Notes under the pieces: model-generated
The model's input: only the letters and a program-made list of their open reading frames with translations
Told to the model about the DNA's origin: nothing
Databases searched by the model: none
In this document: piece after piece, positions 23,773 to 63,957 of the stretch
Numbering within the stretch: position 1 is the stretch's first letter
Layout: every line of letters begins with the position of its first letter
NCBI GenBank assembly: GCA_963402885.1
Contig: OY727096.1
Coordinates: 4,898,001-4,962,000, forward strand
Reading direction: 5' to 3'
Length of the DNA stretch: 64,000 nt
From: Antedon bifida
Taxonomy: Eukaryota > Echinodermata > Crinoidea > Comatulida > Antedonidae
Program-made: the position numbers and the translations under genes

Positions 23773-26700
23773 TTAAAGCTCCAGCGGTAATACCATTTCA
23801 GCAGCGATGTCACTGGCTGCTCGTTTACCTCTGACGTCACTAGAACAACCCTGGCTGCAGCGAGAAAATCGTTCGGTAGGGTCACAGATCAAAACTCGAC
23901 AACTCAAGAATACCTGATGGAAAAGGAATCGAAAGAGAGATTAAATAATGGTATATGGCAGTGTACTGTGAAGATTACAAAAACATATTTAGGTTTAGTG
24001 TTTTCAAACCGTTTTGACAATTGTCTATACAATCTTCTAACTTTGTTGATCCTCTATACGTAATGTTTGTTCATGCTACAACGGAGCATGTCGAGACCTA
24101 AAGCTCTGTCTACACTATTAAACTTTATGTGACAAAAAATGTGATGTGCCTATGTAAGGACATGATGATGTCATATCACTACCATATTGAAGCATGTCAT
24201 TTCCATATTTTGGGCACATCACATACAACTAGGTTGATAGTGTAGACAGAGCTTAAGCACCTACAGATACAGGACACGTGGACAGGTTAACAGTTAGAAC
24301 CTTATGAAGCAACTAGAGAAGTTTCAGAACTTCTGACTTGTGTCACGTTTACCTATTGTAAACTGTGTTTTTTCTTACCTCTCCATGTAGTCCATGGAAC
24401 ATAAACGAGAATGACTCCATAGAGAATCTTTGCTCTGAGATTGATGGTGAATACTCTGCTTTCATCGTGCTGTCAACAAGGCAACTGTGAAAAAAATGTA
24501 TTTTATACGGCTGTAAACTTGGTTTTATGTACGAGAAGAATAAAGAAGTTTGGAATAATGGAAGTACGTGAACGTGAGTAATTGATTGAATCAGTAGACC
24601 TACCCGTCTTTCACGAACTCAAAGAGTTGGTTGGCTCTGCTTCCTGGAACTGAAGTTGGTGTAGCTTTACAGGTTTCAATCAGAATTCTCTTTGAAGGAT
24701 CTCTAGATTTAGCAGAGAAATACATCCTCTGGCGCATGGCTACCTGAGCTGGGTACTCATTCAGGCTTACACGACGAGTGTAATCTGGTGCATCGAACAT
24801 TTGGAAAGTGAAGTTGCTGCGACCTTCGCTCTTTGCTACATACGTCTTCTTGGCCATCTTTGGTAAGAAGTGGCCGTGCGTCAAACCTTCACTCTCCATC
24901 TCGCAGATTACTTTGATTTCAAGATGGCGGACGTCACGTGTGATCTTGCTTGCACCTTTCTCGGATCTTGGGCGGTCACGGATTGTGTTGCGATACATGG
25001 CGATGTTGTCAGATTTAGCCTGAACATTTAAAACAAAAATAGTTAAATAAAATAAATAACATTTTCTTTAATCTCTAAATAAAGCGATTTTTGTTAAAAT
25101 ATAGTGTAATATACGTACTCGGATGACCGTTCCGCATTCATTGTATCCAGTTTGAAGGATGACGTGTGTTTCGTTCAAATCTCTTCCTCGGCAGATGGGG
25201 TCATGCAAATGTAGACGACGTGAACTGACGTCAGCAAGGATACTTCGGTGGATGTAAACAGTCATGTGAGAATCATGGCACTCTACTACTGGTTCACGTG
25301 GGATAAGTGAAGAATCTATAGAGAATGAAAAGGAAAAGGATGTCATAGTTTAATAACTTCAGTATCATAATACGGCGGATACTTCTTCTAGTTGGTTGTA
25401 TTTATCTTCCAAGAGAAAGAAGTTTTCTGTGACCAAACAAATATCTTAAAATCATGTGTCTCTACTCAATTGCATAATAGTATACTCACTGGTACGAAAC
25501 ATCCAACCACTCTGTTGTGTGTCAGTTCTAGCAGCACATGGATCAGGGTTCCTGACTCGCGCAATGCCTGGATCAACTGAGATCATGTGGAGAGCGTTGT
25601 CCTTCAACAACATTCCGGGAGTCTTAAATGACAGAGATGTCTCGTTGAACGTCACTAATTCGGATGCGGCATCAATCCTGAAGATTGGAGGCACGGGTTT
25701 TGTTGGGTTGATAATCTCAATGTAGGTTGGTTCGTTTGGTCTTTTAATCTGTAAATGAAATATTTAGTAAAAACCGCAATAGTTATTTTTTCAGTGGGTC
25801 TAGAGTGGTCAAGTTATGGGAGTCGCAAACCATAGCCATAACATAATATCAATAAGTCTCCCTCGACTATTGTTGAACAAATTGTCTCAGATAAGGACTT
25901 AAAAATCGGAGGCCTACATGGGACTCAAGTGCATATTTTGGCAGCAGATATAGCTGTTACACTGGTATATTAATCCATTAGCCCCTGTCGTTCATCTTGG
26001 TAAGCTCTGCGCTGATGGCTGCCGTGCCGTGGGTCCGAAGAGAACCTGATCTGAAATCGTCGGTCGTCGCAAATCGAACAACTTTCTTACCGGTTTGTCA
26101 AAGCTGATGACCCATTCGTTGTTTTCTGGCACGACATGTTGCAACGGTGATGGGTATGATTTTCTGGGAACAATCTTTGGAGGCTGTGGTGCAATTCTGC
26201 TGGTTGGCGACGCTGTATCAATTAAATTATAATAGTATGGTTGGCAAGTAGTATTTTACAATTGTGTTGAATAGAACTGTTTTTAAAGGAGAACAAGCTT
26301 GCTTTTAATTCAAATGTATATCTCTATGAAGATTTTTATTTCTTTTTCAATTAACTCATTTAGTAACTAATTTGAGTTTGCTGTTTAAACTTACCAGTAA
26401 CGATTAGTCTTAGACATCTCTGGTCACTTGTAACTCTAGAAAAAGATAATTACAAATTAAAATCAAATAATTTAATACTAACAAGTACTCGTCGTTTGTC
26501 TTTGTGAGATAACAGTAATAATGAGTATCTATTTGACTTACCCGTATGTATCTCGTGCGTATAGACAAACAAAGTGAATTCCTGTCTCGCGTGGAATCCA
26601 GCGAAGCGTGATTGCGTAATCGTTCCTTGAGCGCGATACTCTCTTCACTGGTGATTTGGTCATACCGGCTGGCGATACTGTTCCAATCTCAACAATGCTA

Positions 26701-29700
26701 CAATAATGAAACATGTTGTAAATCATTTTAACAAGAACTGCAATCACTCAACATTCCGTTGGTTTGAAAATAGAAATCTGGATTTTGTAGCATTAGTAAT
26801 AGTAGTATACGTACCCAACACCTCGTCTGCCACTTCGCGCCTTAACGTCAATGCTCCACGGTTTGTTAGGCTTCAGATAGAAGCAGGTACCAGGAGGCTC
26901 AAAGATTTCAGGTTGACGACATGGCTCATCTGAAACAGAAGATGAACATTTAAAAGCACTTCATTTAGAACGAAACGGTTGAGGACATTTGTGTATTGAC
27001 CCACATCCGGGCGTAGGTAACATTGTTACACGTGTAGCTGTAATGACAGTGATATATTCCTACTATCCTAGGCCTATATACTTATAGTAACTTCATAAGT
27101 CGAGTTAACCTACCAAGTGGGAAAACCTTTATAAGAAACTGGAGAGGAATAGTGCTGAGAGCTTTCGTTGAAGTTGGAGTTGCAAAATCTTCGATCATCA
27201 TTGAGACTGCATACCAACCGGGTTCGGCAGTTGCTGGGAAAAATATCTCGCATTCGTCCTGTAATAGTTAACATTGAATGACTGGTAATCAGTTTAAGTT
27301 ACATAAGTGTTAATGTTAGTAGTCTGTAAAGTGTAAATACATTTAGAGACACGAACTTACAGAATCAAGTGTGCTTTCCTCTGTAAGGCTACCACACACA
27401 GAATGGTCGAACTGAGTTGGTGGACATTCTTGTCTTTGTTCGCTTGTCCACCTGCATCTTACGGTATCCCTGTCCGGATCCGACACTGTGGAAAGAAGTT
27501 CATATTGTTAATACGTTTACGTTAACAATGTTTTCAAATGTACTGTATGGCTCGGAAATCCTTGTATACAGAGCGCGCCCTCTCTATCGTCACACAATTA
27601 CGGTTGCTTGTGTATTATTAGTGAGCGCGCTTTATTTGAGTGAAACACATGCATCGTGACAACTACGATGATAGCCAATCAGAGTGCTTATGTTGTAAAG
27701 GAATTTTAGCTTTCAGTTTGATATGAGGAATCTAGATAGATAAACAACAATATAATATGCCATTCTGAACTCTTGCCAAAACACAATAGACCTAGTTTAA
27801 TCGCAGTAGTACATCAATAAATACTCACCCGGAATTCTGATTTTACTAGAACAGCCTTGCTGCACCCTGATGATTGGAATGACTGTGGTGTAGGGTGATG
27901 AATTTGGCAGTAGTGTGTCTTGTCGAGGTCGAAGGTCAATTGTTGAAATCATGTTCCAATAGTTGGCATCACCATAGTTTTGTAAATAAATCCAGTAGCT
28001 AGTGGATTCTTCTTCATATCTTTAATGATATAATATTCCACATATTACATTTTGATTATTATTAATTAGCCTTTGTTGTCGCACATCTTTATTAAAAACT
28101 ATTAGGCCTACTATTACTGATTTCGCGTACTGTATATTAACTTGGAATTCTCTCTTTGTGATAATTTACTTTATGGTTCCCTCTTTCCAAGATAAGTATC
28201 TTAGTATTCTATTTTACTGACATAGGTCTTGGAATTATTCCTTTTAAATAAACTGGTCAGTAAACATTGTAACGTTACCTAATTGTAAAGACATCTCTAT
28301 CCGGGGTGTACAAGAAAGATCCGACGCCTGTACTCCAGTCCTCAATATTATGATCGCTAAAATCAGTACAATTGAAATCTAGTTGTCTGTAGATTCGTCG
28401 GCGGCATTCTACGCACAAAATGTCGCCTTCTCCACCCAGATGTTGTCCTGGATACTCGCACCAAAAGTCATTTCGAGGGGCGTACGACCGTCTCCATGAT
28501 ACACGCCATGAAATTTCAATCTAAAAAACAACAATAAATATCGTTCATAGCCTTGTATTCCATACTTTTCCGCAAACCCCTAAACATCTAATTACGACGT
28601 AAATTAGTTTTTGCCTGTGATCAGTCCACAGTCAATGTGTAGGCCTACAGTACCCGCTGACAGAAGTCATACGCGCAATTCTGTGTGGTCGCGTCAGCAG
28701 CAGACGACTTTAAGGTATCATACAAGTAATATCAAAATATTAGGTAGGTTATGATTGACAACATGACCAACTGTAAACACATTCTAAAGGCCAGTCCTGT
28801 AAGCTAAGTAAACAACTTACAGTACGTCAGGTATTGTGAATGATCTGTGTTTGTATATAAATTTTTCTATTTTAAATATGTTTTATTAAAACCCTCGATT
28901 GTTTTCTTAATTAAAATCATCTCATTTGGAAATAAAATGTCTGTACAACCAGGTAAGAAATCAATTTATTTCACTCTTCCCTGGTAAAACCACGTTTAAA
29001 GTTAACTAAAATATAAATATATTCTTTCCCTGTACTGTTTCACATAATTGTAATAACCATTTACAGTAGTATTATTTAATTCATTTTTAAGATTAAATGC
29101 ATATTAAATCATCTTTAATAATTGAATTTTTTTTATTATCGGTGGAACTTTAATGATTTGTGTTTTTCCAAATACAAATCGTTTGCAATAGCTATAGTAT
29201 TTTTTTTTGTATTTTCACATCTTTTATACATACAAAAAAAACACACATTTAAACCAAAGCAAAATTACAATTAAAATAATAAAAAAATAATAATAGCTAT
29301 AGTCTGTAATCTGTAAATGTTACAGTACCAGTAAACACTGTCTAGTTCCCATAGCATGATTCAACAAACACGTATGCAATTGCTTTTCAAACCAGAAATA
29401 GAAAGTTCAGAACGTTTGTTTATTTATAAACCTTTTTAATTAAAAACAATAAACAACAAAAATCTTTCCTAGAAAAGATATAACCACATTGATATCGAAA
29501 CTCAACCGCTGTTGAGTGTTGCGTTTAGTTTTTTGCGCAATGAGCGCGGCATGACAGGAATTCAACATTTTATTAGTTAATACTTTATGAAATAGTTGAT
29601 GGAATGTAAAGTCCCCTTGAAGTGGGGCCTAGGCCACATTCATTTCGAAATTCGATCATGCACCCTACCGCTACCGTCAACAGGCGCCCATAAACCTGAG

Positions 29701-32700
29701 CATGCTATAGGCTACACAATATTTTTCATTTCTAGAGCAACTCTTAAATGTTAACTCTAAAATGGTAAGATGTTCTTATAATTTACATCACTTTTGAATC
29801 ACCTTTTCTTATGCGCCTACATTAACATCAGACATTCTAAACTGAATGTTAATTAATTTGAAACGAGAAAGATAATGATATAATATATAATGTATGTGAA
29901 AAGTAAATTATAAGTTCAATTCCAATTCAATTTTATTTTCATAAGATCATAATGTAATAAACATGGTAGTTTTTTAAAACTAGAATGCACTTATGCTGGA
30001 GAAACTTTGAAAAAGTTCGCTTTCTAAGAACAAGGCCATATACATGGCCAACCGACCAACCGACCGACATAGTGAGCTGTAGAGTCGCGTTTGCACGCAA
30101 ATAAAATACATTGCTTTTCTTCACAACAAAATAGAAAAATGATAGTACACACATTAATAGAAAAAGCTGTTAAGATACAAATGTTTCATTTATCATATTT
30201 CATGATTTTGACTGGATATTTGTATTTTGTACGTTCTGATACGCTTGTGCAAGGACAGAGAATATCATTTCCTTAGATTGGGTTTTTAGTCGTAGAACAT
30301 TTATATGCTAATTCCTTCATGTAGACAGGCGTTTACTTTAATTCTGATTGAAGATAATTTTCTTATTTGAAAAATATATTGGCCTGCCATTGAAACTATG
30401 ATCAGGTAAAAGAAAGCCTGTTTTGCATTGTGTCCTGTCTTAAATACAAAAAAATCTAATAATAAAAAAAAATGTAACATGAAAAAAAAATTAGATTGAT
30501 ATCTAGCTTTGAATGAAGCGGAATATTTATTTTCAACTCAATTTTCATTGAAATGTTTTAACGTGTTTGTGTTGTACACTATACATACTATGTTTACAAG
30601 TGTAGATTCTTTTCTTATTATCTTCAGTCACTTTGAAAATGTTGCCTGAACGAAGTAATTAATTAAATTAGTCAAGGTATCTCTTTACTAATTGTCAGTA
30701 GATTATAATCGTATCTCAGTTAAAGAATAATGATAGATGGCGTGTACCTTTTGAATTAATTTAAATTCAACCAAGAGACCGATGACGTATTTAAAATGAC
30801 GTAAGTTATCAATTGAATAAAGTTTAATTGTGAATAAATAATTTCATTATTTGTATGTAAGTATCGGGATACAAGGTGTTTAAGATTTGATTCACCAACC
30901 ACTGGTTTAAAACCATATGCTCAACAGATAGTTTGTAAAAATAGAGACACGCATTAGAGTCCATACACGAAGTTAACTGTGCTCGAATTTGTAGAAATGT
31001 CCAGATGATTAAAGATAAAGCATCGGTGTTCTTTATTCATAGCGAGTGCTCTAAATTAAATTATTGTATCGACGATTTGTAACGAGAAACGGACAGTGGT
31101 AGTTGGCTTGCTCTGGCATAGTGTGTGAAATTGAATTAGTTCGATTTGCAACGAGAGAATGGACTGCGCGAGTAGCCTCAGTTGTTGATGGAGTTTCTCG
31201 ATGTCGCGGTTTTGGGTCACCCGCTGTTACTCCAGCAACGTAGGGGAGGAAATGCGATATTAAACGTATTCATAATAAAACCTTCAGCTTATTGGTGAAT
31301 TTTAAAATCTATTTTTGCCGTTTGGGAAATTGTTTAGATGTTTCTAAGTTAACTATTTTTCGGAACGTGTTACTTGTGTAATTTAAAAATCATATTTATA
31401 TTATTTATTCCAAATTTCAATAAGTAGTATTTAATCAGACAATATTGGATATTACGTTTGTGTGACATCTGTAATTGTTTTGTTATTTACTTCAGCAGGC
31501 GTCACCTTATCTAATTATTATGTTTACAACGGAATTGAAAAAAACCAACACATTACCTTTTATAACTTAACTGGAAGCTACCATATCTTTCAAAACATCA
31601 CAATAAAATGATATATTATTGGAATTTAACGTATTTATTTAGCTGACCAATTTTCTGCTTTAGAATTCGACTTGACTCATACTAGGCCTACTTAGAGAGA
31701 TATCATGCCTCAAGCCAGATATCAAGAAAAGTTGAAAAAGTACTAAAATAAGGCACCCAAGTGCGTATTTGTCTTCAAATGTATCTTAAATATTTATTAA
31801 GTCTGCTTCTCAGAAAAAAAAGGTATGCTTTAATTTAGGGCGTTTATTCTTGTACTGTATGAATTGTTAAAGTTGTATAATATTAGCAGGCATATATGTT
31901 AGTTATGCATATGACGTCATTTTGGCGCGTTAGAATTAACATGAATATTCATGACAAGGAGTTTGAAACTTTCCACCTGCCAAACAGATACTTAACTATT
32001 CATATGTGGACGATTGCAGACCGTTTCTCGGAGATTGAATCACATAATAGCATTGTAAACTATTAAAAATGAAAGTTGAAAATGAAAAAAATTAATATCA
32101 CAAACATAACATTAATCGAAATACCGCCGAAACTGTATGATATTCGTTAGATCTCCGTTGGACGCAAATTCAACCGTTTTCTAAAACTATAGGTAACGGT
32201 GGAAATAAATGTTTCAATTTCAGATATAATCATTATCCCAGTTATTCCGACAGATACAGTCCGAGGTTTTAATTCAATAATAGATAACATATGTACTTGA
32301 CCTTTTTTGAGACGACGTAACTATCGTCGTGATAGATGTCTGTACAGATATCACTTATTTGGTTTAATGCCTGGTGCCGCCTTATTGAAATGCAACATGT
32401 CTACTTTATTTTCCGAATGTTTTTACATCAATAACTTGTCAAACCTACAGGACCGATGTAACGTAAAAAGAGCAACCGTACAATTGTGTTGTCTGTAAAC
32501 GTGACTAGGCCTACATATACGTTAGTTTCATACAGTCGTTTATTTTGATATTTAACAACCTCAATTTTTTAAGCGGTTTGATAATCGACTACTAGCTGAA
32601 AATGAAAGGTGATAAAATCAATTGCGTTCACACTGGTATTCAAGTTACGGAAATTAGCTCTCCGCATTATTGAATAGGCCTAAGTATAATAATTAAAACC

Positions 32701-33267
32701 CTAATTCCTTCTAAACGCAATAATAACAATCAATGATGATTTCTTTCCGTTCTCTACAGAAGTAAATTGGGTGTCTAGGAAACCAAGATCTAGAAATCTA
32801 AGACCTAAGATCTTAGATTTTATATCTAAAAGAAGAGATAATTCAGGTCTTTTTTTAAAGATCTTTTTGATTTTTAAGATCTTTTCTTTTTAAAACAAAA
32901 CATGTTTTAAAGAAAAATGTTCAATATCCTACGAATACTGTATTTATTACTATTCGATATTCGCATATTATATTACAAAAAATCCATATTTACCCAAAAT
33001 CATGCGGTACTAAAACAATATATATAATATACTGAAACACATACTGTCAAGACAAATATAATGAAACCCAATAATTATGATATTAAATTTCGAATTAACG
33101 CATTGTGTTTTTTTTTTTATTAATTTAAGACAACTTTAATGAGATATTAGTATTACCTGTCCTCTCGTCCTTGATGGACGCCATCTAAAAGTTCCACCTC
33201 TAAAATGAGTTGCCTGAGAAAGACAGACGACAGCTAGAAGAAGTAATGCTGTCCTTAAACCTGCCAT
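23773..33267 (-). CDS. Secreted ZP-domain protein, paralogue A, complete, 14 coding exons
   Basis: Coding exons, - strand: 33157-33267, 28279-28520, 27829-28019, 27361-27485, 27114-27258, 26815-26929, 26542-26697, 26395-26435, 26091-26212, 25490-25748, 25119-25315, 24604-25019, 24379-24484, 23773-23913; they join in frame to 788 aa. A signal peptide (residues 1 to about 19) precedes THFRGGTFRW. Extracellular modules follow: DPDRDTVRCRW, GWYAVSMMIEDF and STIPLQFLIKV (about 182-272), then LRWIPRETGIHFVCLYARD (about 340-360). A beta-rich module spans about 408-502. The ZP domain runs from about 570: VECHDSHMTVYI and YNECGTVIR (ZP-N), MYFSA and GCLVDSTM (ZP-C), and RCSQGC. RGKR at about 770-773 is a furin-type cleavage site, and the chain stops 15 residues later with no transmembrane segment. 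A polymerising extracellular or cuticular matrix component is inferred; the function is unknown. Confidence 0.92.
24101..24255. mobile_element. MITE family A, copy 4
   Basis: Complete arms: AGCTCTGTCTACACTATTAA at the left and GATAGTGTAGACAGAGCTT at the right. It lies in the last intron of ZP gene A. Confidence 0.8.
30020..30100. repeat. Dispersed repeat family G, copy 1
   Basis: ACAAGGCCATATACATGGCC, then CCGACCGACATAGTGAG, then AGAGTCGCGTTTGCACGC. It lies in the 4.6-kb first coding intron of ZP gene A (28521-33156), which otherwise shows no recognisable feature apart from an AGATCT-rich patch at 32775-32890. Confidence 0.65.
32775..32890. repeat. AAGATCTT-rich palindromic patch
   Basis: Repeated AGATCT/AAGATCTT words (for example CCTAAGATCTTAGATTT) form overlapping short palindromes inside an intron of ZP gene A. 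The nature is unknown. Confidence 0.4.
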
Positions 33268-34730
33268 CTTATAACCTAGAAACAAAAAATCAAAAATAGC
33301 ATTGCATTTGAATATATGGAGTATTTGAGAAATGCAGTATTCGATTTTTTGAAATAGTATGTAATAGTTAATATTTTACATCAACATTTAGGACATTGCA
33401 ACATATGTAAACATCTTTAAATAATATATACGTGACTAGGAACAATATTATGTAAGTAATTACGTAATGGAACTAATTTCATTCATTTTCATTTCTTTAT
33501 TTGTTCGACATCATGTCCTGAGACAAACAGAGTCACCATAACATGATATGTTTGGGGTACCAGAAGAACTTAACTACATACAATTATTTATCATTATACA
33601 TATACTGTATTATAAATAAATATTAAAATATATAATGTATTATTAAATTATATCTAAGATTACAATGTTCATTTACATATCTAAGCTTGTTTACTAATTG
33701 CTAAATAATTTAAACGACTTAATCTTCAAATCAAATATATATCAAGATTTCCAATTAGTTGGAAAAACGTTCAACAAAGACAGTCTAGAGTTTGCGCATT
33801 GAATCTCAACAGGGAAGAAAGTACTAAGAAACCAACAACACGTAGAGTCACGATCTTAGTGCATTTCACGGTTTGAAGCAACTATCTTGGTGTGAACATT
33901 TTGATATTTCAGTTCAATAATACATAACATGACAAGCCAATTATCATAAAAAGTGACAAACAATTATTTTCTTGTAGTCCTATAGTTTTTTAACTAAAAA
34001 TAAGATAATTTATAAAAAATGCATTTATGATTTAATGAATATAATATGAAGTAGTAAGCTAGTAATAATTTCATAAATGTATACAAGGTAGAATGGAATA
34101 AAGATACTGGTAGTTTAGAAAGATTAGAGACAATAATACAAAGTGTAAGGAAACATTCTTTAAAAAACCTAATATTGTATATATTTTTTAATTAAAAATA
34201 AAATATAGAAAATGTATTTATGTTTAATGAATATATTATGAAGTATACCAGTAATCATTTTATAAATTTATACAAGGTAAAATAGAATAAAGGTAGTTTA
34301 GTTGGTGAGTTTAGAAAGACTACAATGTGTAAACAAACACACATCAATAGAAATTCTTGATCTTTTGTAAAAAAAAAATAAACAAATTGGTGCACATATT
34401 ATATTAAATTTACTATTTACTTTCATTATTTGAAATTATAAATATGTTTAGTTAACAAATGTCTGTTTGAAATAAAGTATTAACTTCATTCTTTCGATTA
34501 TTGCTGGAAATGGTTCTTTTTCAAAACTTTGATAAAAGTTTAAAAGTGAAAAAAAGTTGATGTACTTACTGATTTATAAATGTAGGTACAGCAGACCCTA
34601 TAATAGCGCAATCCAACTTTCCTCTTTGGTTGCAGAGAAATATAATTCTAAAAGACAAGAAGAAGAAGAAACTGTGTTTTTTATATATTTGCGTTATGTC
34701 CGTGTTCTTCCGTTGTCTTCCAATCAATGT
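33268..34730 (-). other. 5' UTR exon and first intron of ZP gene A
   Basis: The coding exon is preceded by a splice acceptor (TTTCTAG, - strand) so that the exon begins at 33275, eight bases before the ATG. Upstream, a good donor (GTAAGTAC, - strand) at 34569 bounds a likely non-coding first exon from about 34730 to 34570. Its start is set by the TATA box at 34755-34761. The intron between is AT-rich and shows no other feature. Confidence 0.6.
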
Positions 34731-34754
34731 CGAAGTAAAAAATGTAGGAATTTC

Positions 34755-34800
34755 TTATATACTCGCATGGTGTTTATCTATTCGATATTTCGTGACGTAA
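34755..34800 (-). promoter_or_regulatory. Core promoter of ZP gene A: TATA box and CRE-like site
   Basis: On the - strand TATATAA lies at 34755-34761. Thirty-one bases upstream of it is TTACGTCA (34793-34800), the complement of a CRE-like TGACGTAA. Transcription would start near 34730, just before the inferred non-coding exon. ZP gene B has the same pair of motifs at similar spacing. Confidence 0.6.
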
Positions 34801-36424
34801 CAGAGACCTGCTGAGATGGTTGGAATTGGGCGACCGACGCATTGTAAGGTAGCACTTTCACCTAAATGATGCTTTAGTCAGCTCTCTGACACAGTCATTT
34901 CACGGCAGGTGGTGCCTTCTCGCTTATGAATATTTGGAATCTGTACCGTCTGAATTGTCATTTTGTTGTACAGTTGTCTACTCATTATTTCTTATATTTA
35001 TATCATTATGCTTTTCGTTTTTGTAGATTATCTTAAAACCTCTACAATGTACATCTAATATTGTAAGGAAGACTTTTCTTATACACAATATAAAACGAGT
35101 GAACATGCACGTATTTAAATTGGATCGGACGACCTACTACACTTAATGATGTTACCTCCATTTGTATTCCATTTCAATAAATATTACATTACCATGTAGT
35201 GTTTGTTTTAGTTTAAAGCAAGTTCTCTGATACATATTAGGACCGAAATGATATTATATTGTATATTGAATGTTTAGTGTTGTAATTATTAGTTTGTAGG
35301 TTTGTGTATTGAATAATGCAAAATAGTTCAAATCAACAATCTGAAATAAATGGTTAGGTTGCTGATTTTCAAGAAGGAGAAGAGTGTACCGGATGTGTCA
35401 ATCTATATATATATATTTAAAGTCTTAAGCAACATATTTTTACTTCTTATTTTGGTAAGATAGGATAGACAGATGCCTTTTTCACTCGAGCTCATGTGAG
35501 TACTGTTCCGGTGAGCTCTCATATGGGAGCTTGAAAGTACCGGAGAACGGAGTGGTCTGAATGGTTCCTCTGCTTTTCTAATTTTTTTTATCTTTATATC
35601 TATTTTATTGATCATTTTGTGTGTGTATAGCGCTTACAATTATTGTACTAGGCGCTATAATATTAGTAGTACTACTTATTAATGTATTTTTTTCTTTCAA
35701 GGGCTCATTCTTAAAGCATTTACAGGAGATCCTCTGTGATTGGGTTAAGTTTAAAATATCTATATCTGTTCGATATCCATCTGCATTCATTCTTACACCT
35801 TAGTATTCCTGGTCAGCTCATTCTATCATCATTAACCCTTCCTTCCATTCGATATTGATCATCCACAACTAGATTAAACACAATCTTTTAATGGATATTA
35901 AGTCACAATGTTGAATTGCCTGACACCATTTCCTCAGGCTTAACAGAACTAGACATTCCGTATTATACCATCATCACCAGAACCGGATTTTCAATGTATT
36001 AAAATAGGTTCGTTGTTAACTGAGTCAGCGATAAGACTAATGAGTCAAGCCGCGGACGTATAATATTTCAACAAAATACATTGTCACAATTTTTATTACA
36101 AATTTTTAAATTAAATCAATTGTATGCAGTTTAAACAGATCTTGTTAATTTCATTTAGCCATCAACCAAATACAAAACACACAGTGGCAAGGAATGACCA
36201 TAGAACAAAATAAAACTTTGACCCTCAGGCCGGTCACTCTGCCTCAGAAAATGAAATTCAAAATATATAAATAAATATTTGTGTCTGAAAGTCTTCTTGA
36301 GATCTTTGTCTGTTTAAAATAATATCTTGTCAATGAGCTGTCTAACGTACGCGATACCTCTCTGTAATTTATGTAGGCCTATTCATGTGTTCGTTATTAT
36401 AAAGTATAGTATGATCTTTCAACA

Positions 36425-36772: not shown

Positions 36773-36953
36773 ACTGATAGTAACTCCTATTTTAAATCAC
36801 GTACGAACGTAATTTTTGTGACAAATCTTACAATATTATGATAAATCAGTCCAATGGGACAATTTATAATAATAGCATATGGCAACCATATTGGAATCCA
36901 AGATGGCCGCCATTAAAAACGTATACAATGTATGCATTTATGTATTTAATCAT
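36773..36953. repeat. About 180-bp repeat, inverted partner at 51083-51264
   Basis: It contains TCACGTACGAACGTAATTT and CATATGGCAACCATATTGG, which recur as the reverse complement 14 kb away at high identity. Confidence 0.8.
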
Positions 36954-43029: not shown

Positions 43030-43190
43030 AATCTGTCTACACTATCAAACTAGTTCGACAAAAAAAGTGTGATGTGCTCAAATATGTTAGTGATATGCTT
43101 AAATATGGTAGTGATATGATCATCATATCTATATATGGGCACATCATATTTTTTTTGTCACATATAGTTTGATAGTGTAGACAGGGTTTA
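43030..43190. mobile_element. MITE family A, copy 5
   Basis: Both arms are intact: CTGTCTACACTATCAAAC at the left and GATAGTGTAGACAGGG at the right, with the usual ATATGGGCACATCA centre. Confidence 0.8.
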
Positions 43191-51082: not shown

Positions 51083-51264
51083 TTGATTAAATACATAAAT
51101 GCATACATTATATACGTTTTTAATGGCGGCCATCTTGTATTCCAATATGGTTGCCATATGCTATTATTATAAATTGTACCTTTGGACTGATTTATCATAA
51201 TATTGTAAGATTTGTCACACAAATTACGTTCGTACGTGGTTTAAAATAGGAGCTACTATCAGCT
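51083..51264. repeat. Inverted partner of the repeat at 36773-36953
   Basis: It is the reverse complement of the first copy (CCAATATGGTTGCCATATG, AAATTACGTTCGTACGTG). The two copies differ by scattered substitutions. Confidence 0.8.
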
Positions 51265-52686: not shown

Positions 52687-52726
52687 TGACGTAATGAAGT
52701 AAATGACAACCAAAAAGATATATAAA
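52687..52726 (+). promoter_or_regulatory. Core promoter of ZP gene B: CRE-like site and TATA box
   Basis: TGACGTAA at 52687-52694 is followed by TATATAAA at 52719-52726. Transcription would begin near 52745-52755, around TTCAGCATC. The arrangement mirrors that of ZP gene A. Confidence 0.65.
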
Positions 52727-52747
52727 CGCCTCTGTTTGAAAGTTTCA

Positions 52748-52810
52748 GCATCAGATCGGCAGACGTACCATACGTCTGAAGTTTATCTAGCAGAGGAGTT
52801 TAAACACAAG
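52748..52810 (+). other. Inferred non-coding first exon of ZP gene B, with hairpin
   Basis: It spans from the expected start about 30 bases after the TATA box to a donor (AAG|GTAGGA) at 52811. It contains a perfect 8-bp inverted repeat, CAGACGTA-CCA-TACGTCTG, at 52760-52778. The following intron (52811-53680) has no other feature. Confidence 0.55.
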
Positions 52811-53685
52811 GTAGGAATGTTCAACTTGTTTTATATAGTAACGTGTATTACTGTACGAAAAATATAGATAAAGTACCAGTTATAGATTTTTAAATAAAAT
52901 TGTTTGAAAGAACAAACTATTTAATTCTTTAGATAGTAGGCCTAATAGTTGTTTTTAGAAATAGTGATAACATAGCAAGTATTATTTATATAGATGGCTT
53001 TGTAAATTCGTTGACACATTTCGTTGACAATATCAGAATGATATTATATCTATAGGCCTAATTTTTTACAACCTACACTATAGAATTATTAAATGAAAGT
53101 TTGTTACATAAAGTTTCGTATACGCAAAGAAAAGTTCTCCTTGTGTATATTTTACAGTAGTATATTCAGTTGATTAGGATTTTTTACAAATATAAGTTTT
53201 TGGTTTTTTTTCCACGATTTGTATCAGTTCTCTCAAAATGATTGCAGTTACAAATTTGGAAGATTAGCAAGAACAACGACTCATAAAAACACGCTTTCTA
53301 TAGTTCCATAGTTTGAATTTCGATTTTCTAAAAATGATAATGAGAATACTGTGAATACTTTAGTTATTTAACATTATGTTTGATTTAATACCGTATAGAA
53401 TGCAATGTTTAGATAAAAAAGCGTTATTTTTAAAACACGTAGAGCATATCATTAAAAAAATAAACCCCTAATTGGCCTAGCTTTTCAAATAGTAAACGAT
53501 CTTTATTAGTACGGTTTATGCAAAAGGTTTATGTAAAAACATCCAAAGAAGATTGATAAGAATATTATTATTATTGTTATTTTTCAAAGGCAATACAATT
53601 GGTACATTAAGTACTTTTCAAACTTGTTTAGTTATATATATCGTTTTACTATTTTATTAACATGTTTTGTTTCATTTCAGCGAAA

Positions 53686-56600
53686 ATGCAAGGTATTGTA
53701 CTCTTCGCACTGGTGTTTGTTCTGGGGGCAGTAGAGGCCAGCCATTACCGTGGTGGTACCTTCAGCTATGAGAAGTTGGGTAAAAACCAAGTAAGTCTAT
53801 TGTATACATGATTGTCTACAGATGTGCAATGTGAACTAAAAACAATAACCGTTTTATTAGATGAATTAGTACAATCTCTATTAGACATGTTAATACAGTA
53901 TGTTCGTATGTGCCATACACTAGGACGATAAAATATAAAAAGACAGCAAATCATAATGCCCCTAAAAACTAAGAAACTCGAACCATTTTTGTTTCTATTC
54001 AACATTCTTTTCAACATAAATAATAGTACATAACGTATAATTTAACGTAATACATAAGACAATAGCAATTAAGAATTATTCGATATCATCACTTAAATTC
54101 TTTCCTTTGACTAATGTAATATTCTTTTTTATGCTTTTTTCTTTTTCTTTCCCTTTTTTTAACTCGAATCATTTAACCTCTCCTCATCACTTTGTCGTCG
54201 AAAGGTCTGCAATTGCACTTTCACTTTTTTTACTTCATCTAGATTAGAGTAAAGTGGAGGTTGGCTGCCAAGAGATCATGGGGTCTTGAGTATGAATGCA
54301 AGAACATTGGCCAAACTATGACTGGTGAATACAATGGTGTATTGAGATGTATTGACTGCGCCGGAGACAATAAGGTTGCAGGACCTTTAACCTATGATTG
54401 TGTTGGTTATAGTGAAACACAAGACTGGAGTGTTGTCGAAGGATACGCCGAATTTACCGCAGATAGACCACAATTTACACTTTTGTAAGTTCTACAGCTT
54501 TTTAAAGTGATTCAATAGCGTTTATTTTATAATGATGTATGATAACGATTTATCATAAATAAGTTAAGAAAAGAAGACTAACATTTGGTGCTCACTTGGG
54601 CGCAACGCGTGTTGACAAATCATTAGCGACAGTTCCAATGATCTATCGCGTCGTGATTGGTCAAATTACATGCGTTGTGCACGTCCTTGCGCTGCGTCCT
54701 AGTGATAACCAATCTTAATCTAAGATAGTTTGTAGAACAAACAGAAACCTCAGACTCGAAATGAATTCATTTATTACAGTTATCAAGTAGAACCTGAATC
54801 CCAATGTAAAGCTGCCAGTAACTGGATTGACCTGGTAAACGCTGCCGGAAGAAGTTGCTGGAGATTGGTAACCAAAGTAGACCTGGTTAAGAAAAACCAA
54901 CATTCACCCGTTGTCACTATGTTGCCTGTATTCACTGTACGATCTGGCTGCAGAAGTGTTATTCCAATTGAAGGTAACACAACATAAATACTCTAATTTA
55001 CATTCATTATCCTTCTTAATTTGCATTACGTAACATTCTCTTTCATTCTTTCTTTTTCATTTAGCTTCGCTGCTGTTCCGTTCCTTCATTTCACATTTTT
55101 TCCATTCTCATTCCTTTACTCCACTTTCGATCACTCTTTCTTTATTTATTTCGGTTTTCTTTCTATTGCTTGTCCATTTATTTGCTTTCTTAAACCTTAC
55201 CTTTTCTTTCCATGCACATACATAAGTATACCTTCGTTTCTTGTCAAAGTTTTGAACTTACTTTTTATCAGTATATTGTACCAACAACACTTTTAACAAA
55301 TAATTACGTTGACATTTTGTCTTACTGTAGCATCTGACCCAGATGGTGATATTGTACGATGTCGATGGGCCGTCGATGCCAAAAATGAATGTCCACCCAA
55401 ATTCGGAAGTGACCAACATGTATGCGGAATGGCAACCGATTACGCAGTTCTTGATAAGGTAAAAACAATCCTGTAAAATTTCGTTTTTGTTTTTGTTTAT
55501 TTCGGTAACACGATTTTTGTTTAGTTTTGTAGAATCCCACAAGGTTACACTCATTGGAGTGACCCTTTTTGCAACCATATGAATTTCTTTTCATTTTTAC
55601 GTTTATAATAATATACTGTACTGTAGAAAGTGTACGGTAATTCGTTATGTTGGTTACTTTATTTGGATTTTGAACTTAAATTATATTTTTCTCAATAGGA
55701 TCGATGTGAATTGGAATTCCCTAAGATGGGTATTCCTGGTTGGTACGCTGCCTCCATCATGGTTGAAGATTTTAAGAACAAGAAATCAAATGAGCCACTG
55801 AGTACAATTCCATTCCAGTTCCTGTTAAACGTAACAGAACGTAAGTATTAATCAATACCAATCGATTATGATTATCAATCGATAATTAATATCCTGCCTT
55901 TGTCCTTCCCTCGAATATCAAAAACAAGTCTACTTTATACGGTATAGCAATAGTTATATACTTTAAGTAGGTATTACTGTACGTGGTCTAAGGGTTCGGT
56001 TCCACAACCATCAATAATATTAGGCGGTGAAGAATCCTCATTCTTTGCAGAGTTTGTGAACAGAGGCTTATCAAGTAAATGTAGTACAGTTGTATTTTTT
56101 GAAGTCGTAGTGTTGTTTCTAACGTTTAATATACTAAGTTTAATCATACTAAATCATCTACACTTACAGCCGGTAGCTGTGTAGGTCCATTGGTGCAAGG
56201 TCCATCTTGTGATATCATCCGACCTGGTGAGAAATGGACAGGAGTTGTAACAGCAAGAATTCTTCCAGCATCAGACGCCGAAACGTAAGTTTAGAAGTTT
56301 TCAAACACATAATTATTAATTTACCTACTATTGTATTTCTATAGCAATCAATATCATTGATATTTAAAAATGTTCTCAATCGTTTACAGTATCATTGCTA
56401 TGCCAATGAGTCCCCCAGCAGGAATGAAGACCAAGATCACCACTAGCCTTCCAAGAAGCGAGGCATCTATGGAACTTTCTTACACAGCTGGCAGAAAAGA
56501 AGGAGTTGTCGGATTCTGCTACACCGCTCTCGATAACAACTGGTTAGTTTGTTTATCAAGACATAATTATTTTATCTCTATATAGACATTTTCAAATTAT

Positions 56601-59600
56601 TGGTATTAGCATATCTGTAAAATATGTTTTTCATTAAATAATTAGATATGATAATATTGTTATTATTGTTTTTGTTCAGGGTACAAAGTGATCCGGTATG
56701 TGGCCGAATTATGATCTCAAGTACGTATAAATCTTTATTCTTTAAATTCCAAATATTTTGTGTTAATTTAAAAATATAGAAACTTCTTCCTTCTTCCTCT
56801 TCCATTGTAACAACATCTTAAGCTCTGTCTTCACTATTAAACTTTATGTGACAAAAAATGTGATGTGCCCATATATGGACATGATGATGTCATATCACTA
56901 CCATATTTAGGCACATCACACTTTTTTTGTCAAACTAGTTTGATAGTTTAGACAGAGGTTTATTCATAAACTTATTCACGCTGTATATTTTCATTATATT
57001 TCTACAGAGGATCTGCCCAAGGACAAAGAAGAAGCCGAACCCGCTCAGTTACTCATGGCTAAGTCAATTCCTAAACCAGGACAAGTCTATGGTAACAAGA
57101 AAGGAGAAACTCCAATGCCTAAGACATGGAGACTCGCTTTCAACAAGCCAGTAAGCATTATTATTCATCTATGAATGTAACTTAGGCTCGATTCTCTAAA
57201 GTTTTAAATGTACACAACATACAACTGTCCTTACAATTCAGTTGGGTTTATAGTTTAAAACATTGGCTTGTTAATTGTAACAGTAATGTAAAAATAGAGG
57301 CCTATTATTGTCAGGTTGGTAGTAGTGTACTTGTGTGTAATTCTCTCGGTCAGTTAATACCAAACAAGTATACTATGGTAATAGTAATTCATGTTGGTAA
57401 TGTGGGTGTGGAATTGATAATCTATGTGTTTGTGGTTTTTAAATTATTTTTTCATGAAGAATTAAGTTATGGGAAATTGTGGTGTGATAACAAATCTCTT
57501 CATCATCGTTAATTATAACCAAAGACACAAATAATTTCTCTGTTTCTCTGAAATTCAAGGTCACTTGATTAACCAACTTTATATACTTTATATTCATTTT
57601 AATTTTAGGCCTAATAATGTCGAACAATTTTTAATTTATAGGTTGCTCGACCACGCAAACCAGCATACGCTCGACTCAAGTACAGAAAGGGAATGGACTT
57701 CAAAGAATTGGCCAAATTCAACTTTGCCGATCCTAATGAAATTAAATTTGTCGAAGGAGCTGAGAGTTCAATAATTGAGTTCAAACCTCCACTAGACAAA
57801 TTCAAGGATGGTGTGCAATACTTCGTTGAGATTGACTCAGGTACAGCTATTGTCTACAAACCAGACCCCTGTGGTAACGCTCCAGCAGAAAGTCCTAATC
57901 CAGGCTTGATGTACCCCTTCCAAACGGCTGAATGCAAGCCTAAACCACCACCAATGGCCATTCCAGAAGAATCTATTCCCTCACCAGATTTCGAAACCGC
58001 TAAGGAAAAAGTATGGAAAATCAAATTCAACAAAAAGGTAAGTAATACATTGGTTAAAATGGTAGTAATTGAACACGTCGTTGAAATACATTATATTCTT
58101 CATTCATTCTTTATTGTGCATTTGCCTGATAATAATTTATTATCAACCGTCTTTTAGATTGTTCGACCAACCAACACTGCATACATCTCAATTTTGGAAC
58201 TTCCAAGCCAAAAAGTGTTGGCTAAATTTGACGCCTCTAAATCCAGTGATGTAGAATTCCCATCAGATGACCCAACCATCCTTCGATTCAACAAACCATC
58301 AGGCATTGAAGACGGCATGCTGTTTACTCTTCAACTGGACGGTGGCGTCGTAATGGCAGTCAATCCATCACCCTGCAGAAGCGAAATGGGCTCAGCTCTT
58401 TCAGGCGGCGGAGGAGGAGGAAAGGGAGGAAAAGGAAAGGGTGGCAAAGGCGGCGGTGGCGGCGATGATCCAGGAAAGAAACCAAATCCACCAACAACAT
58501 GGGGATTCAAATCACGTACGGTCTTCTTACTTGATTTACTGCATAAACTTTCGTTATGTTTCCATCTTAAGGTATCTATTTCCCTTCTATTATACCATCT
58601 TTGTAATAAGTTCTAAAAACGTTTCTTCTTACAGCACCTCCACCAGAACCATACGTTGATTGTGGTGACTACAGCATGACGTTCCACGTTCCACACAAAT
58701 ACGTCGATGACATGGCACCAGAACTTCTCCACCTTCATGATCCAGAATGTACAGCCAAGAGCCGAAACTCTAAGTGGATGACAGTAACAACGTTCTATGA
58801 CGAATGCGGAACTAAATCCAAAGTAAGTGTTATCATTATTTATTATTCTTTATTGACAACTGGGGATAACAGTGCCCAACATGGCACACAAATAGTAGGC
58901 GATACAAGCATGTAAATAGCAATAACATACTTAGATAATATTTTCACTAACTTTAAAAACAAATTTTGACAGTAATAAAGGTTCAATAGAAAATAAAAAC
59001 ACAAGATTATGGCAATGTATTCAGTAAATGGGCATTCCCATAATGCGTGAAGCTCGGTGTGCACTTCGCCGCATTTACAAAGACGTTCATCGGGTGGCGT
59101 GCGAGACCACCGCCCAGTTTCTATTCTAAAATTAAGATCATTGATCCTGTAATAAATCATTGATTAATAATATTTATAAACAAATTAACTGCTACTACTA
59201 CAACACTGCTATTCACCAATATTTACACTTTTTCTCTACAGCGTCTTAGTCAACAGAAGATGCGATACATCAATACCCTCAGAAGTGATCCAAAACCAAT
59301 CTTCTCTGGTGCTCCCGCTACACGAAAACCCCATAAGGTTGACCTTAAGTTCGTCTGTGACGTTACTGGTACTGGAGTAAACGACAACCAATTCAACTCC
59401 AACAACGGCGTTGACACCAAGAAGTTCACCAATTCTGGAGACATGCGCACCTACTTGTCTATCTACAGCGATAGGTCTTATTCCAGAGTCCTTACCAACA
59501 GATTCCCTAACGTTTCCTTCACAGATGTCTTGTACTTTGCTGGACATGCTGTCAACTCTGCCCACGAGCTTGAGATCGACAGCTGTCGCGCCTTCGCTAA

Positions 59601-60456
59601 AGACAAGACATGCACAAGATATGATGACCCATATGTCTTCATTGAAAATGGGTGAGTTATTTCTTTCAAACAAATTTCTTTTACAATGATAAACTAATTC
59701 CTTTGAAGATAACGGAAATCATATTGTAGAGTATACAGACTTGGTTTTACAGAACTATTTAAACAATGTATGTATATGTAAATGACTACAAGACAGAGAC
59801 TTTGGAGTAAGATAAAAAGTTTTGAATTTTACGGAAAATACGGATATGAGAAAGGTAGTTGTAACTGCATTGGTAGAGTTGCAAATTTACGCTTTATCCC
59901 AATACTCTTTAAGCAATTTCTTGAGGCTTTTTATTGATAACTGATCAGAACAGACAATCCATTTCGTTTACCATTTTTATATTCTGTACCTATACTCATA
60001 TCCATATTTATTTTACAGTTGCCCCGTCGACCCTACCGTAAGAATCAGTGGATCCGGAAACGAGAAACGAATCAGCGTTACGTCATTTGGAATGATCCAG
60101 AAAGGATTGGACCACAATGTAAGTAATACCGATTTACTAGATCCGTATACTTTGAATACTTTTCCAAACTCACCCCAACATACGAGTAATGATTTTTTTT
60201 CTCCATGCAATGCATTCATGGTACTAGATGCATGCTGGTCGTAGCCCATTGTGGATGGTACTACCATCCTACACAATCTTACCACCTGCCAGCGCCATTG
60301 TGATATAAACATTGTATTAAAGAAACTAATACTGTACTATGATTCCTTTGATAGGTAATTGTAAGATGTCGAATGGTCGCCTGTGATTCTAAGAACGCGG
60401 ACGAATGTGCAGCAATCAAGGCCAAGGCCAGGAACTGTCCGTCAAGAAAGGGCTAG
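53686..60456 (+). CDS. Secreted ZP-domain protein, paralogue B, complete, 15 coding exons
   Basis: Coding exons: 53686-53790, 54243-54484, 54780-54973, 55331-55458, 55699-55840, 56170-56284, 56390-56542, 56680-56720, 57008-57150, 57642-58037, 58158-58515, 58635-58822, 59242-59651, 60019-60118, 60355-60456; they join in frame to 938 aa. A signal peptide (residues 1-18) precedes SHYRGGTFSY. The same extracellular modules as in paralogue A follow: SDPDGDIVRCRWA, GWYAASIMVEDF and STIPFQFLLNV (about 181-270). The beta-rich FNKP...RP module ending in NPSPC or KPDPC occurs twice (about 415-510 and 550-637). A Gly/Lys-rich linker (about 640-662) and a PPPEPYVDCG stretch lead to the ZP domain (from about 680: ECGTKSK, DVLYF, GCPVDPTVRI, IVRCRMVACD). 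There is no furin site or transmembrane segment; it ends NCPSRKG. Exons of 242, 115 and 41 nt equal those of paralogue A. A secreted matrix protein is inferred. Confidence 0.93.
54585..54716. mobile_element. MITE family C, copy 4
   Basis: GGTGCTCACTTGGGCGCAAC at the left, then GTGATTGGTCAAATTAC and CTGCGTCCTAGTGATAACCA at the right. It lies in intron 2 of the ZP gene B coding region. Confidence 0.65.
56819..56961. mobile_element. MITE family A, copy 6
   Basis: AAGCTCTGTCTTCACTATTA at the left and TTTGATAGTTTAGACAGAGG at the right. It lies between ZP gene B exons 8 and 9. Confidence 0.8.
58995..59160 (-). mobile_element. LINE remnant in antisense in ZP gene B intron 12
   Basis: The - strand reads LNFRIETGRWSRTPPDERLC, then KCGEVHTELHALWECPFTEY. 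This is the Cys/His-bearing C-terminal motif after the RT domain of LINE ORF2. The frame runs out of homology at about 59000. It is a fragment only. Confidence 0.7.
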
Positions 60457-60825
60457 AAAAGGAGGGCTAGAAAAGGAGAGCAGACAGAGTCGATGTACCA
60501 ACATACTTTTAAAACAAATTGATAGAAATATTATAACTTCATAATTAATAATTAACAATATCGCTATTACTATGTATTAATGATTACATTTACCGAGGAA
60601 AGACTCTGCTGACTTTGACCATGCAATATTTTAAACCGTTTAATGATTGATTTAGAAAAAATATGATCTGATTTTAGACATCGGCCTAAGTTTTTGCTTA
60701 GTTGATAATTTTGAAATCAATAAATTCCGATGATATGCAAATTATAAAGATTGTATATTATTTATTTTATATGCGGTTGTAGTAGATAGTCAACATATGC
60801 TCTTTACAAATATTACGAACCAACC

Positions 60826-60950
60826 CTGTGGACGTATTCACCAATCACATTTAAGGAAGGAAACATCTTTAAATTTAAACAGTCCTCTTATCTAAGTGAA
60901 TATCACTTATCACTTTTTTGACTGATTGATGATTGGAGAATACGACTACT
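60826..60950. mobile_element. MITE family D, copy 2
   Basis: GTGGACGTATTCACCAATCA at the left and GATTGGAGAATACGACTA at the right, with an interior resembling 12697-12830. Confidence 0.55.
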
Positions 60951-60960
60951 TAGACTAATA

Positions 60961-61162
60961 CAAGGCCAACAGCCATAAGTCGCGTGCTCTCAGAAAAAAA
61001 TGAACTTTCAAAAAGTAATGTACTTTAAAACTTTTCTGTACATCAAAACAGTTCAAAAAGTACAGAAAAGCGATAAAACGCATAGTGATACCGGACCGAC
61101 AGACAGACCGACAGACCGACCGACCGACATAGTAAACTATAGAGTCGCGTCCACGCGACTAA
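60961..61162. repeat. Dispersed repeat family G, copy 4 (with internal insertion)
   Basis: ACAAGGCCAACAGCCATAAG and GTCGCGTGCTC at the left; CCGACCGACATAGTAAAC and AGAGTCGCGTCCACGCGAC at the right. About 90 bp in the middle (AACTTTCAAAAAGTA and inverted ACTTTTTGAACTGTT-like arms) is absent from the other copies and forms its own palindrome. Confidence 0.7.
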
Positions 61163-62005
61163 TAACCATCAATCTGCAACTCCTTTTGAACAATCTTTTT
61201 TAACCACTACAATAGAATAATACTAACAAGGCCATGGAGGAAATAATGACAAAACCAATACATTCTCAATATCTAGAAATGTCCCTGTATAGTAATAGAA
61301 CATCCCATAATACGACATCGACGCATCATTTAACCACACTTTTTATTACAATGGTTGATTATCATATTATTTAACTTTGGAAAGAGTGAGATAACTTATT
61401 GATCTAAATGTGACAGTGTTATGCCGTGAATAATGTGAGTTGAATCTTTAACTTTAATGTTTTACTGTTAAAGTGTTAAGCTGTTTTAACAGTTTTCATT
61501 CAGTGTTATCAAACAAGCACCGCAATAGCGCTTAGGCTTTACAATTTGTAAATGTTTTATCTCAGAGAGAGAAAGCGGCATTTGTTCATTCTAGTGCTAC
61601 AAATACATGTAGCTATGCAGCTTGAGTCTTAGGCCTACTTCGTATGCATGGTGTGCAGGTGCTAGAGGAATGGGATATTTGCTTAATCCAGCAAGACCAG
61701 CTGCTAATAGTTGGGTACTGACTAATATCGTCTGTAAATGTGTTAGTGATATTTCACAGCAAACTTTCAGTCAGGATAGAATCCAGATAGGTGCAGTTTG
61801 TCTTATATACTCTTCGAAATCACTGCAATGACCCTACATTCTTAAAATCCCATCCTGTTGGTCAGTATTGTTTTGTCAGTTCTTTTCAACGATTATTGGT
61901 TTATAGACATGCGCAGAAGATATAACCACTTGATTGATTCTTTGAATACAGTTACAGACAGACAGACAGATAAACCAATACTCAATATTGATGCATCAAC
62001 ATTCA

Positions 62006-62487
62006 TTTATTAATTGATTAGAATATGACATTTAATAGTGTAACATTAACATGACACTTTACACTAAGATTCGCCAGGAGTAGACCAAGAAGAACATAAT
62101 CTAAAACAGATCTAGGCTGACATACAAAAGCCTCTTCCCATCCGCCTTTGAAGAAGAGGCTTTTGCATGTCAGGAGAGGTCATACAGTATCCCATATCCA
62201 TAACATGACATTTAATAATTAGGTGGCATTACACGTTACAGTAAGATTCGCCAAGAGAAGAACATAATAACCTAAAACATGTAAATCCAAAGTTTGTTTA
62301 ATCAATATCTAAAGTACAAAGTTTACAGTATTCTATATCCATAAGATGACATCTATAATAATTATGTGTTCGTCAGGAGTAGACCATTAGAACATATAGA
62401 TCTAAAGTTTGTTTCAATCATCTAAAATGATTTTTGTAGGATTCGTTTGTCGATATCTTTTGATTGTTTGATTGGTGGCTTCACAGT
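62006..62487 (-). other. Presumed 3' UTR of ZP gene C
   Basis: It follows the stop codon at 62488-62490 on the - strand and runs to a possible AATAAA at 62006-62011. Blocks such as AAGATTCGCCARGAG, AGAACATA and TCTAAA(GTTTGTTT) recur two to three times (about 62070, 62245, 62370), showing degenerate duplication of about 130-150 bp. Confidence 0.4.
62117..62173 (-). ncRNA. Strong 21-bp hairpin in presumed 3' UTR of ZP gene C (candidate)
   Basis: The arms 62117-62137 and 62153-62173 are complementary over 21 bases, with one A/C mismatch on + that becomes a G-U pair in the - strand transcript. The loop is 15 nt. It could be a structured UTR element, a small hairpin RNA precursor or a short inverted-repeat insertion; the stem is short for a typical microRNA precursor. 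Confidence 0.35.
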
Positions 62488-63957
62488 TTATCCTTTAGCA
62501 GGTCCACATGAGCTTCTGGCTTCCTTGAGTCTGTCACATTCATCTGCGTTTCTTGCATTGCAAGCTACCATCCGACAACGTACAATTACCTAAATAGAAG
62601 AAAGTGTTTCAAACATCATCAGTCATCAGAATCATACTGCATTATTTCAATAACTGACTACTTTAATAACAGAGACGCATTCTTATGATACAGTCACTGA
62701 AAACCTCTGAATACAGTAAAAAGTATAGTAGGCCTAGTATAGTTTACTCCGAGTTTACAGCTGTTTCGAAAATGTTTTGTAACTGTCCATTACATAACTA
62801 CTGTACAGAAGATATGGACAGAAAAAGGTTAACTCAACATTCTCCGTGTGGCAATAGTCATGGCAATCGTAGAGTCTGCAAACCAAATTTTGTTTGTGTA
62901 GACTAGGTTTAACAGACTGTGTTGTAATATTATCAACCTAAGTTTTGCTTTGTAATAACTTTGTTCAACCATCTATACTGAGTTCGATAATCATTTCCCA
63001 ACATTATCAATGTTGAGTATTTCTTTTAAACGTAATATTAAACTACTTACATCATGATCGAGTCCCTTTCCAATGATAGCAAACGCTGAGATACTGAATC
63101 GAAGTTCGGAATCAGTCGAGTCAAGGAACCTCACTGTTGAATCGACTGGACAGCTAAAATATAAAACAAAATACTCTTTAGCAGAAACAACAGTGTAAAA
63201 ATCTCATTATTAAACTTTATGTGATGTGGACGTGCCCATATATAGACATGATTACGTCATATCACTACCATATTTGGGTACATCACACTTTTTGATAGTG
63301 TATACAGAGCTTTAGCTAGTGGTATAGTCAACTTGTCAAAGACTAGGACGTCTACCTATGTCAACTCCAGCGTTGTGGAATTATCAATCGAAATGTGTGC
63401 TACTTTGAAATCTTCAAAGAACCAACAAGCTTTTGCAGTTATCTTAAATGTTGCCATTTTCTGTTTCACGTAAATTATGTAGTACAGCGCATTGAGAGCC
63501 TGCTCATTATAATGCGCTATTATATAAGAATTAACTATTATTATTACCCATTTTCAATGAATACGTAGGGCTCATCGTCATCGGTACACGTTTTATCTTT
63601 AGCCACTGCCCGGCAGCTTTCAATCTCTAAGCCGTTTGTAGAGTCGTCTGCGTTTGCACCAAAGTACAAAACATCACTGAAGCTTACATTAGGGAACTTT
63701 GATTCTGTCTTCTTCGAAAAGGTTTTGTCCGTGTACAATGCTAAGTAGGTTTTCATGTTGGTACTGCCTGAAAACTTTCTTCCTTCCACGCCATTGTTGG
63801 AGTTGTATCGTGGAGTGTTTACTCCAGTACCTTTAACGTCACAGATAAAACGTATATCGACTTTGTGGACTTTTCGTGTGGCTGACGCACCGGCGAAAAC
63901 AGGTTCTGGGGTGCTACGCAAAGTGTTCATGTAACGCATGGAATTCGGTCCCAATCT
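62488..63957 (-). CDS. Secreted ZP-domain protein, paralogue C, 3'-terminal three exons (partial)
   Basis: Exons on the - strand: 63548-63957, 63051-63153 and 62488-62589; the acceptor at 63958-63959 shows that the gene continues beyond the right edge. The 410-nt and 102-nt exons have exactly the lengths of the matching exons in paralogue B; the middle one is 103 versus 100 nt. The protein has MRYMNTLRS, RKVHKVDIRFICDVKGTGVN, SNNGV, FPNVSFSDVLYF, SCRAVAKDKTC, DDEPYVFIENGCPVDSTVR, KGLDHDVIVRCRMVACNARN and a GPAKG terminus. This is the ZP-C half of a protein that is clearly closer to paralogue B than to A. There is no furin site or transmembrane segment. It is convergent with gene B, 2.0 kb apart. 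Confidence 0.9.
63205..63314. mobile_element. MITE family A, copy 7 (degraded)
   Basis: The left arm is worn (CTCATTATTAAACTTTATGT); the centre ATATAGACATGATTACGTCA and the right end GATAGTGTATACAGAGCTTT remain. It lies in an intron of ZP gene C. Confidence 0.65.

Follow-up and report, generated by a model that had tools for sequence, protein, structure and literature searches.

The window analysed here comprises 64,000 nucleotides of contig C9 of Antedon bifida (C9:4898001-4962000; genome of 315.6 Mb in 27 contigs) and harbours three related, intact genes in alternating orientation, A (-), B (+) and C (-), an arrangement that a sequence-only reading had claimed and that is borne out by our gene models. 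Gene A extends from position 33267 to 23773 on the minus strand (14 coding exons, 788 amino acids), gene B from 53686 to 60456 on the plus strand (15 coding exons, 938 amino acids) and gene C, in extended coordinates, from 70787 to 62488 on the minus strand (15 coding exons, 909 amino acids). All three models are splice-consistent reconstructions known from the DNA alone, and their internal splice sites are all of the AG/GT type. Gene C extends 6.8 kb beyond the right edge of the window, with its start at 70787 corresponding to C9:4968787, and is complete there; its last three coding exons of 410, 103 and 102 nt lie within the window (62488..63957, minus strand) and the other 12 outside. A and B are placed head to head with their start codons 20.4 kb apart, and B and C tail to tail with their stop codons 2.0 kb apart. 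To the left of A, pieces of a beta-galactosidase-like gene (about 1337-17084, plus strand) and of a PhyH-like gene (18313-21180, minus strand) were encountered. Two pieces of the former, when tested against Pfam, matched GH35 with E values of 2e-13 and 4e-8, and both pieces of the latter stayed under the Pfam cut-off.

The same order of modules, the same intron phases and several exact exon lengths had been noted for these genes, and the models confirm this and extend it, as the exons of 242, 115 and 41 nt common to A and B are also found in C. Exons of 410 and 102 nt are common to B and C. The start phases of the exons of A are 0,0,2,1,0,1,2,2,1,0,1,0,2,0, and B and C follow the same series with one extra phase-0 exon (phase 0-0). 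Position by position, exon lengths are equal in 10 of 15 cases between B and C, in 5 between A and C and in 3 between A and B, and homologous exons of the three genes differ in length by multiples of 3. The 242-nt exon 2 of A (28279..28520, minus strand) encodes part of the N-terminal module and is homologous to exon 2 of B (54243..54484, plus strand), also of 242 nt. The exon that B has in addition when compared to A is exon 10 (57642..58037, plus strand; 396 nt, phase 0-0), which encodes the first of two repeats with a KP...RP core, whereas the second repeat is encoded by exon 11 (58158..58515, plus strand; 358 nt) and is 29% identical to the first. The end of ZP-N and the start of ZP-C are encoded together by exon 12 of A (24604..25019, minus strand; 416 nt) and by exon 13 of B (59242..59651, plus strand; 410 nt), the latter being 61% identical to the respective exon of C and 20% identical to that of A. 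Introns of A, B and C that differ from gene to gene (24057-24242, 56821-56948 and 63214-63312) and one intergenic site (43032-43169) carry a short palindromic, MITE-like repeat, which was likely inserted independently each time.

In all three predicted proteins, a hydrophobic N-terminus is followed by an N-terminal module of about 350 residues, by one (A) or two (B and C) KP/RP repeats, and by ZP-N and ZP-C. In A, exons 1-8 encode the N-terminal module, exons 9-10 the KP/RP repeat, exon 11 and the start of exon 12 ZP-N, and exons 12-14 ZP-C; B also has a Gly/Lys-rich linker. The N-terminal module contains cysteines and begins with THFRGG or SHYRGG, that is, (T/S)H(F/Y)RGG. Matches to ZP-C (PF00100) above the Pfam cut-off were obtained for each protein (A, 2.5e-19; B, 2.6e-11; full-length C, 5e-14) and to ZP-N (PF23344) for A (1.4e-11) and B (4.1e-8). 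For C, no Pfam match to ZP-N was obtained at E<=1, yet its homologous exon aligns with that of B. When the PDB was searched with the ZP region of B, uromodulin was the only match at E<=1 (E 0.0041). ZP modules carry four conserved cysteines in their ZP-N half and at least four in their ZP-C half. Like ZP-domain proteins such as uromodulin, the three proteins have a C-terminal ZP module with four cysteines at ZP-N-type positions (A, 515, 544, 563 and 607; B, 682, 711, 730 and 774; C, 652, 681, 700 and 744) and further ones thereafter, six in A and seven each in B and C, a likeness judged by position. A hydropathy scan, which is not a dedicated signal-peptide prediction, gave a peak at the N-terminus of all three proteins and no membrane-spanning stretch past residue 25, the highest 19-residue mean hydropathy being 1.24 for A, 1.12 for B and 1.21 for C. 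A furin-like site of the RX(K/R)R type is present only in A (RGKR at residue 770, 15 residues before the end of the protein) and absent from B and C. None of the three proteins therefore combines a furin-type site with a C-terminal membrane anchor, as far as hydropathy reveals anchors (GPI signals are outside such a scan), in which they differ from canonical anchored ZP proteins. Paralogy and a secreted, matrix-type architecture, both proposed earlier, fit the data.

The N-terminal module sets these proteins apart from known ZP-domain proteins. No Pfam match above the cut-off was obtained for it in A, B or C, and in B and C there was none at E<=1. Sub-threshold Pfam matches of the module of A (C19orf84, E 0.12; zf-CCCH_2-like_3, E 0.038) and of a related copy on contig C7 (Ig_Pom152, E 0.043) were taken as chance. 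Neither NCBIfam, against which A and B were scanned, nor the PDB yielded a match to the module. The module may resemble proteins of other marine invertebrates and bacterial surface proteins; when prokaryote contigs were searched with two peptide patterns derived from it, 45 stretches matched and none was confirmed as a relative. A text search of the literature for HFRGG returned, judging by titles and the openings of abstracts, only unrelated papers, and among the papers listed in further searches no protein of such an architecture was found described at the level of titles and abstract openings. As for the KP/RP repeats, an AlphaFold model of exon 10 of B was mostly beta, of low confidence (pLDDT 55) and too weak to be used; the best Foldseek match of this low-confidence model had an E of 0.16, and three phmmer matches of the B repeat in the PDB (E 0.79-1) were taken as chance.

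At the protein level, B and C are 53% identical over 936 columns, and the A-B and A-C pairs are 27-33% identical, each in two main blocks, with E values from 3e-75 to 1e-39. Judged by these alignments of predicted proteins, the similarity among A, B and C is far above chance. A search of the genome with coding exons 1 and 2 of A yielded 16 exon-level matches at 15 loci (A accounting for two matches), and these counts are lower bounds. Nine loci, including A, B and C, are on C9, three on C11 and one each on C15, C7 and C1. The 12 other loci are located at 3.37, 5.54, 5.72, 5.75, 14.36 and 24.34 Mb of C9, at C7:30.67 Mb, at C11:21.0 Mb (three), at C15:0.18 Mb and at C1:33.09 Mb, and were read from pieces of about 3.2 kb, not as full gene models. 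Loci outside the window, too, give separate matches of exon size, so that the shared exon plan alone is no evidence of a local origin.

A tree was calculated from exons 2 and 3 of the 15 loci (154 columns), in which the C1 locus is represented by exon 2 only and has a long branch. B and C were sisters (95/91), the C9:14.36 Mb locus came next (93/94), and these three formed a clade with C9:24.34 Mb and C7 (99/98). A fell outside this clade; its own sister is not settled, 6 of 12 inner branches being open. Over the same two exons, A is 55% identical to C9:3.37 Mb, 47% to C9:5.54 Mb, 36% to C and 33% to B, and is thus closer to loci 0.6-1.6 Mb away than to B or C. When a clade of A, B and C, a group set beforehand, was enforced, the log-likelihood was lower by 72.5 and the clade was rejected by the AU test (p-AU 3.4e-8). 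At fourfold-degenerate sites, B and C differ at 62% of 209 sites and comparisons with A gave 63-67% (101 sites each), whereas a difference of about 70% would be expected for unrelated third positions, as calculated from base frequencies. Fourfold sites are therefore near saturation, which indicates that the duplication separating B and C would be old too, and the claim that the family is expanding here is unsupported. Of the three genes, only B and C are each other's closest relatives among the loci known, with the restriction that the 12 others were recruited by exons of A and that B or C may have a nearer relative outside this set; by their predicted coding sequences, the two split long ago.

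A search for inverted repeats of at least 60 nt between 22 and 64 kb of the window returned three, namely a 179-nt pair, the ZP-C exon shared by B and C, and a 66-nt pair. The 179-nt pair (36774-36952 and 51084-51262) is located in the gap between A and B, its arms are 96% complementary and 14 kb apart, and it is probably a mobile element; both it and the 66-nt pair are short repeats outside the A-B homology. No gene-sized homology between A and B was detected in this search, which relied on exact 14-base seeds and is blind to an old duplication, so that its outcome would argue only against a recent A-B duplication.

The sequence-only reading had also anticipated a larger array past the right edge. 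In the sequence extended to the right, the 10.6 kb past C (C9:4968901-4979500) yielded no homologue of any of the three genes at E<=1, which leaves this expectation unsupported over that distance, and the same result was obtained for the gap between A and B (33401-53500) and for positions 1-23000 of the window. The next loci detected to the right on C9 are those at 5.54, 5.72 and 5.75 Mb, the nearest about 0.58 Mb away; between C9:4979501 and 5.54 Mb, coverage is limited to the lower-bound search with exons 1 and 2 of A.

A search of the genome for ZP-C gave 17 matches, 11 on C14 and 6 elsewhere, a lower bound since the search missed B and C at their ZP-C exons. All six matches outside C14 are located 3' of a match to the N-terminal module, on the same strand and 2 to 15 kb away. 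Five of the 12 other loci (C9:5.54, 5.72 and 24.34 Mb, C7 and C1) resemble A, B and C in having such a same-strand ZP-C match on their 3' side, and for the remaining 7 there was no ZP-C match in this search, which also overlooked those exons of B and C. The three loci at C11:21.01-21.06 Mb are 72-84% identical over exons 2 and 3 and make up a local cluster younger than A, B and C; no ZP-C match was found near them in the same lower-bound search.

The copy on C7 (C7:30670125-30673469) is one uninterrupted frame over the stretch read, and aligns to residues 19-619 of A and, in two overlapping pieces, to residues 1-788 of B. It groups with the intron-bearing locus C9:24.34 Mb (100/99), in which the first coding intron is absent and the next two are present. 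The apparently intron-free state of the C7 copy, nested with an intron-bearing relative, suggests retroposition or wholesale intron loss. Directly upstream of the ATG, at a distance of 1 to 8 bases, a pyrimidine-rich AG is found in A (33267), B (53686), C, C9:24.34 Mb and C7, which suggests a conserved candidate intron of the 5' UTR that ends just upstream of the start codon. A spliced leader was considered for the AG before the starts of A, B and C and set aside, a shared 5' UTR intron being simpler; both are candidate readings. At the tentatively placed start codons of two genes of the window that do not belong to the family, no clear pyrimidine tract was seen.

A second group of ZP genes is found on C14, where eight same-strand ZP-C matches are spread over 87 kb (C14:18624374-18711832; 18.62-18.71 Mb). 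Six of the eight copies were compared over ZP-C; five share 84-96% identity with each other, and L008, the sixth, has 68-71% identity to these five. A locus at C14:21.21 Mb (L001) is 87-96% identical to the same five copies, and one at C14:14.25 Mb (L005) is distant (34-43%). The array resembles A in its ZP-C homology, six copies matching A with E values of 3.7e-5 to 5.8e-6. It differs from A, B and C in being much fresher, and also in that no match to the N-terminal module was obtained on C14 in the lower-bound search. Judged by these identities, the fresher ZP expansion seen in the genome appears to be that on C14 and not that in the window.

Three accounts of A, B and C were weighed against these data. 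That successive local inverted duplications gave rise to all three genes and that the array is recently expanding accords with their proximity, their alternating orientation, their identical exon plan and the sister relationship of B and C; we nevertheless regard it as very improbable. For A, it is largely refuted by the rejection of the A+B+C clade, and an origin of A and B by local inverted duplication is rejected on the AU test together with the identities over exons 2 and 3. The near-saturated fourfold sites of B and C and the lack of a detected further copy in the 10.6 kb next to C also speak against it, and the exon plan is uninformative by itself, as other loci match in exon-sized pieces too. 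Of the local inverted duplications that had been proposed, that of B and C is hence compatible with the tree and that of A and B is contradicted. About an even chance is given to an ancestral cluster on C9, of which A, B and C would be what is left after rearrangement carried other members away and retroposition did so for the C7 copy. In its favour are the nine of 15 detected loci on C9, including the same-strand pair at 5.72 and 5.75 Mb (68% identical), and the C7 copy, which lacks introns in the stretch read and groups with a C9 locus; the C9 loci are, however, spread across 21 Mb. This account is compatible with the explanation we prefer, that of an old and dispersed family. A role as egg-coat or receptor-like proteins, rather than as general matrix proteins, appears unlikely. 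In its favour are the egg-coat roles of ZP proteins in other animals mentioned in PMC13361971; a receptor would be at odds with the lack of a membrane-spanning segment by hydropathy.

We consider it probable that A, B and C belong, as intact genes, to an old and dispersed family whose products are secreted extracellular proteins, with an N-terminal module followed by short repeats and then by a ZP module. The three genes look like part of an old, scattered family and not like a fresh local expansion. B and C would most likely stem from an old local duplication, whereas A may represent a separate, older branch that chanced to sit, or stayed, beside them. As their hydrophobic N-termini and ZP anatomy suggest, the proteins would be secreted, their ZP modules may polymerise into filaments of the extracellular matrix, and the N-terminal module would be displayed on the filament; for secretion and polymerisation, we infer this from the anatomy together with general knowledge of ZP proteins, including PMC13361971. 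The RGKR site and the short tail of A may control its assembly, and B and C, which lack such a site, might assemble constitutively or join A. The apparent lack of a membrane anchor is a difference from many ZP proteins, so that any route by which B and C assemble is tentative. A more far-reaching proposal, which we put forward as doubtful, is that the module of about 350 residues would be an undescribed extracellular domain family coupled to the ZP polymerisation module, that matrix filaments formed by A, B and C would carry it, and that B and C would assemble by a route outside that of canonical ZP proteins.

Taken together, three ZP proteins whose N-terminal module is unannotated now have splice-consistent models, and this module, detected at 15 loci, deserves definition as a domain. 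The apparently intron-free copy on C7 would provide a good case of intron loss within an intron-rich family, and the genes of the window illustrate that recent local duplication is not demonstrated by proximity and a common exon structure alone.
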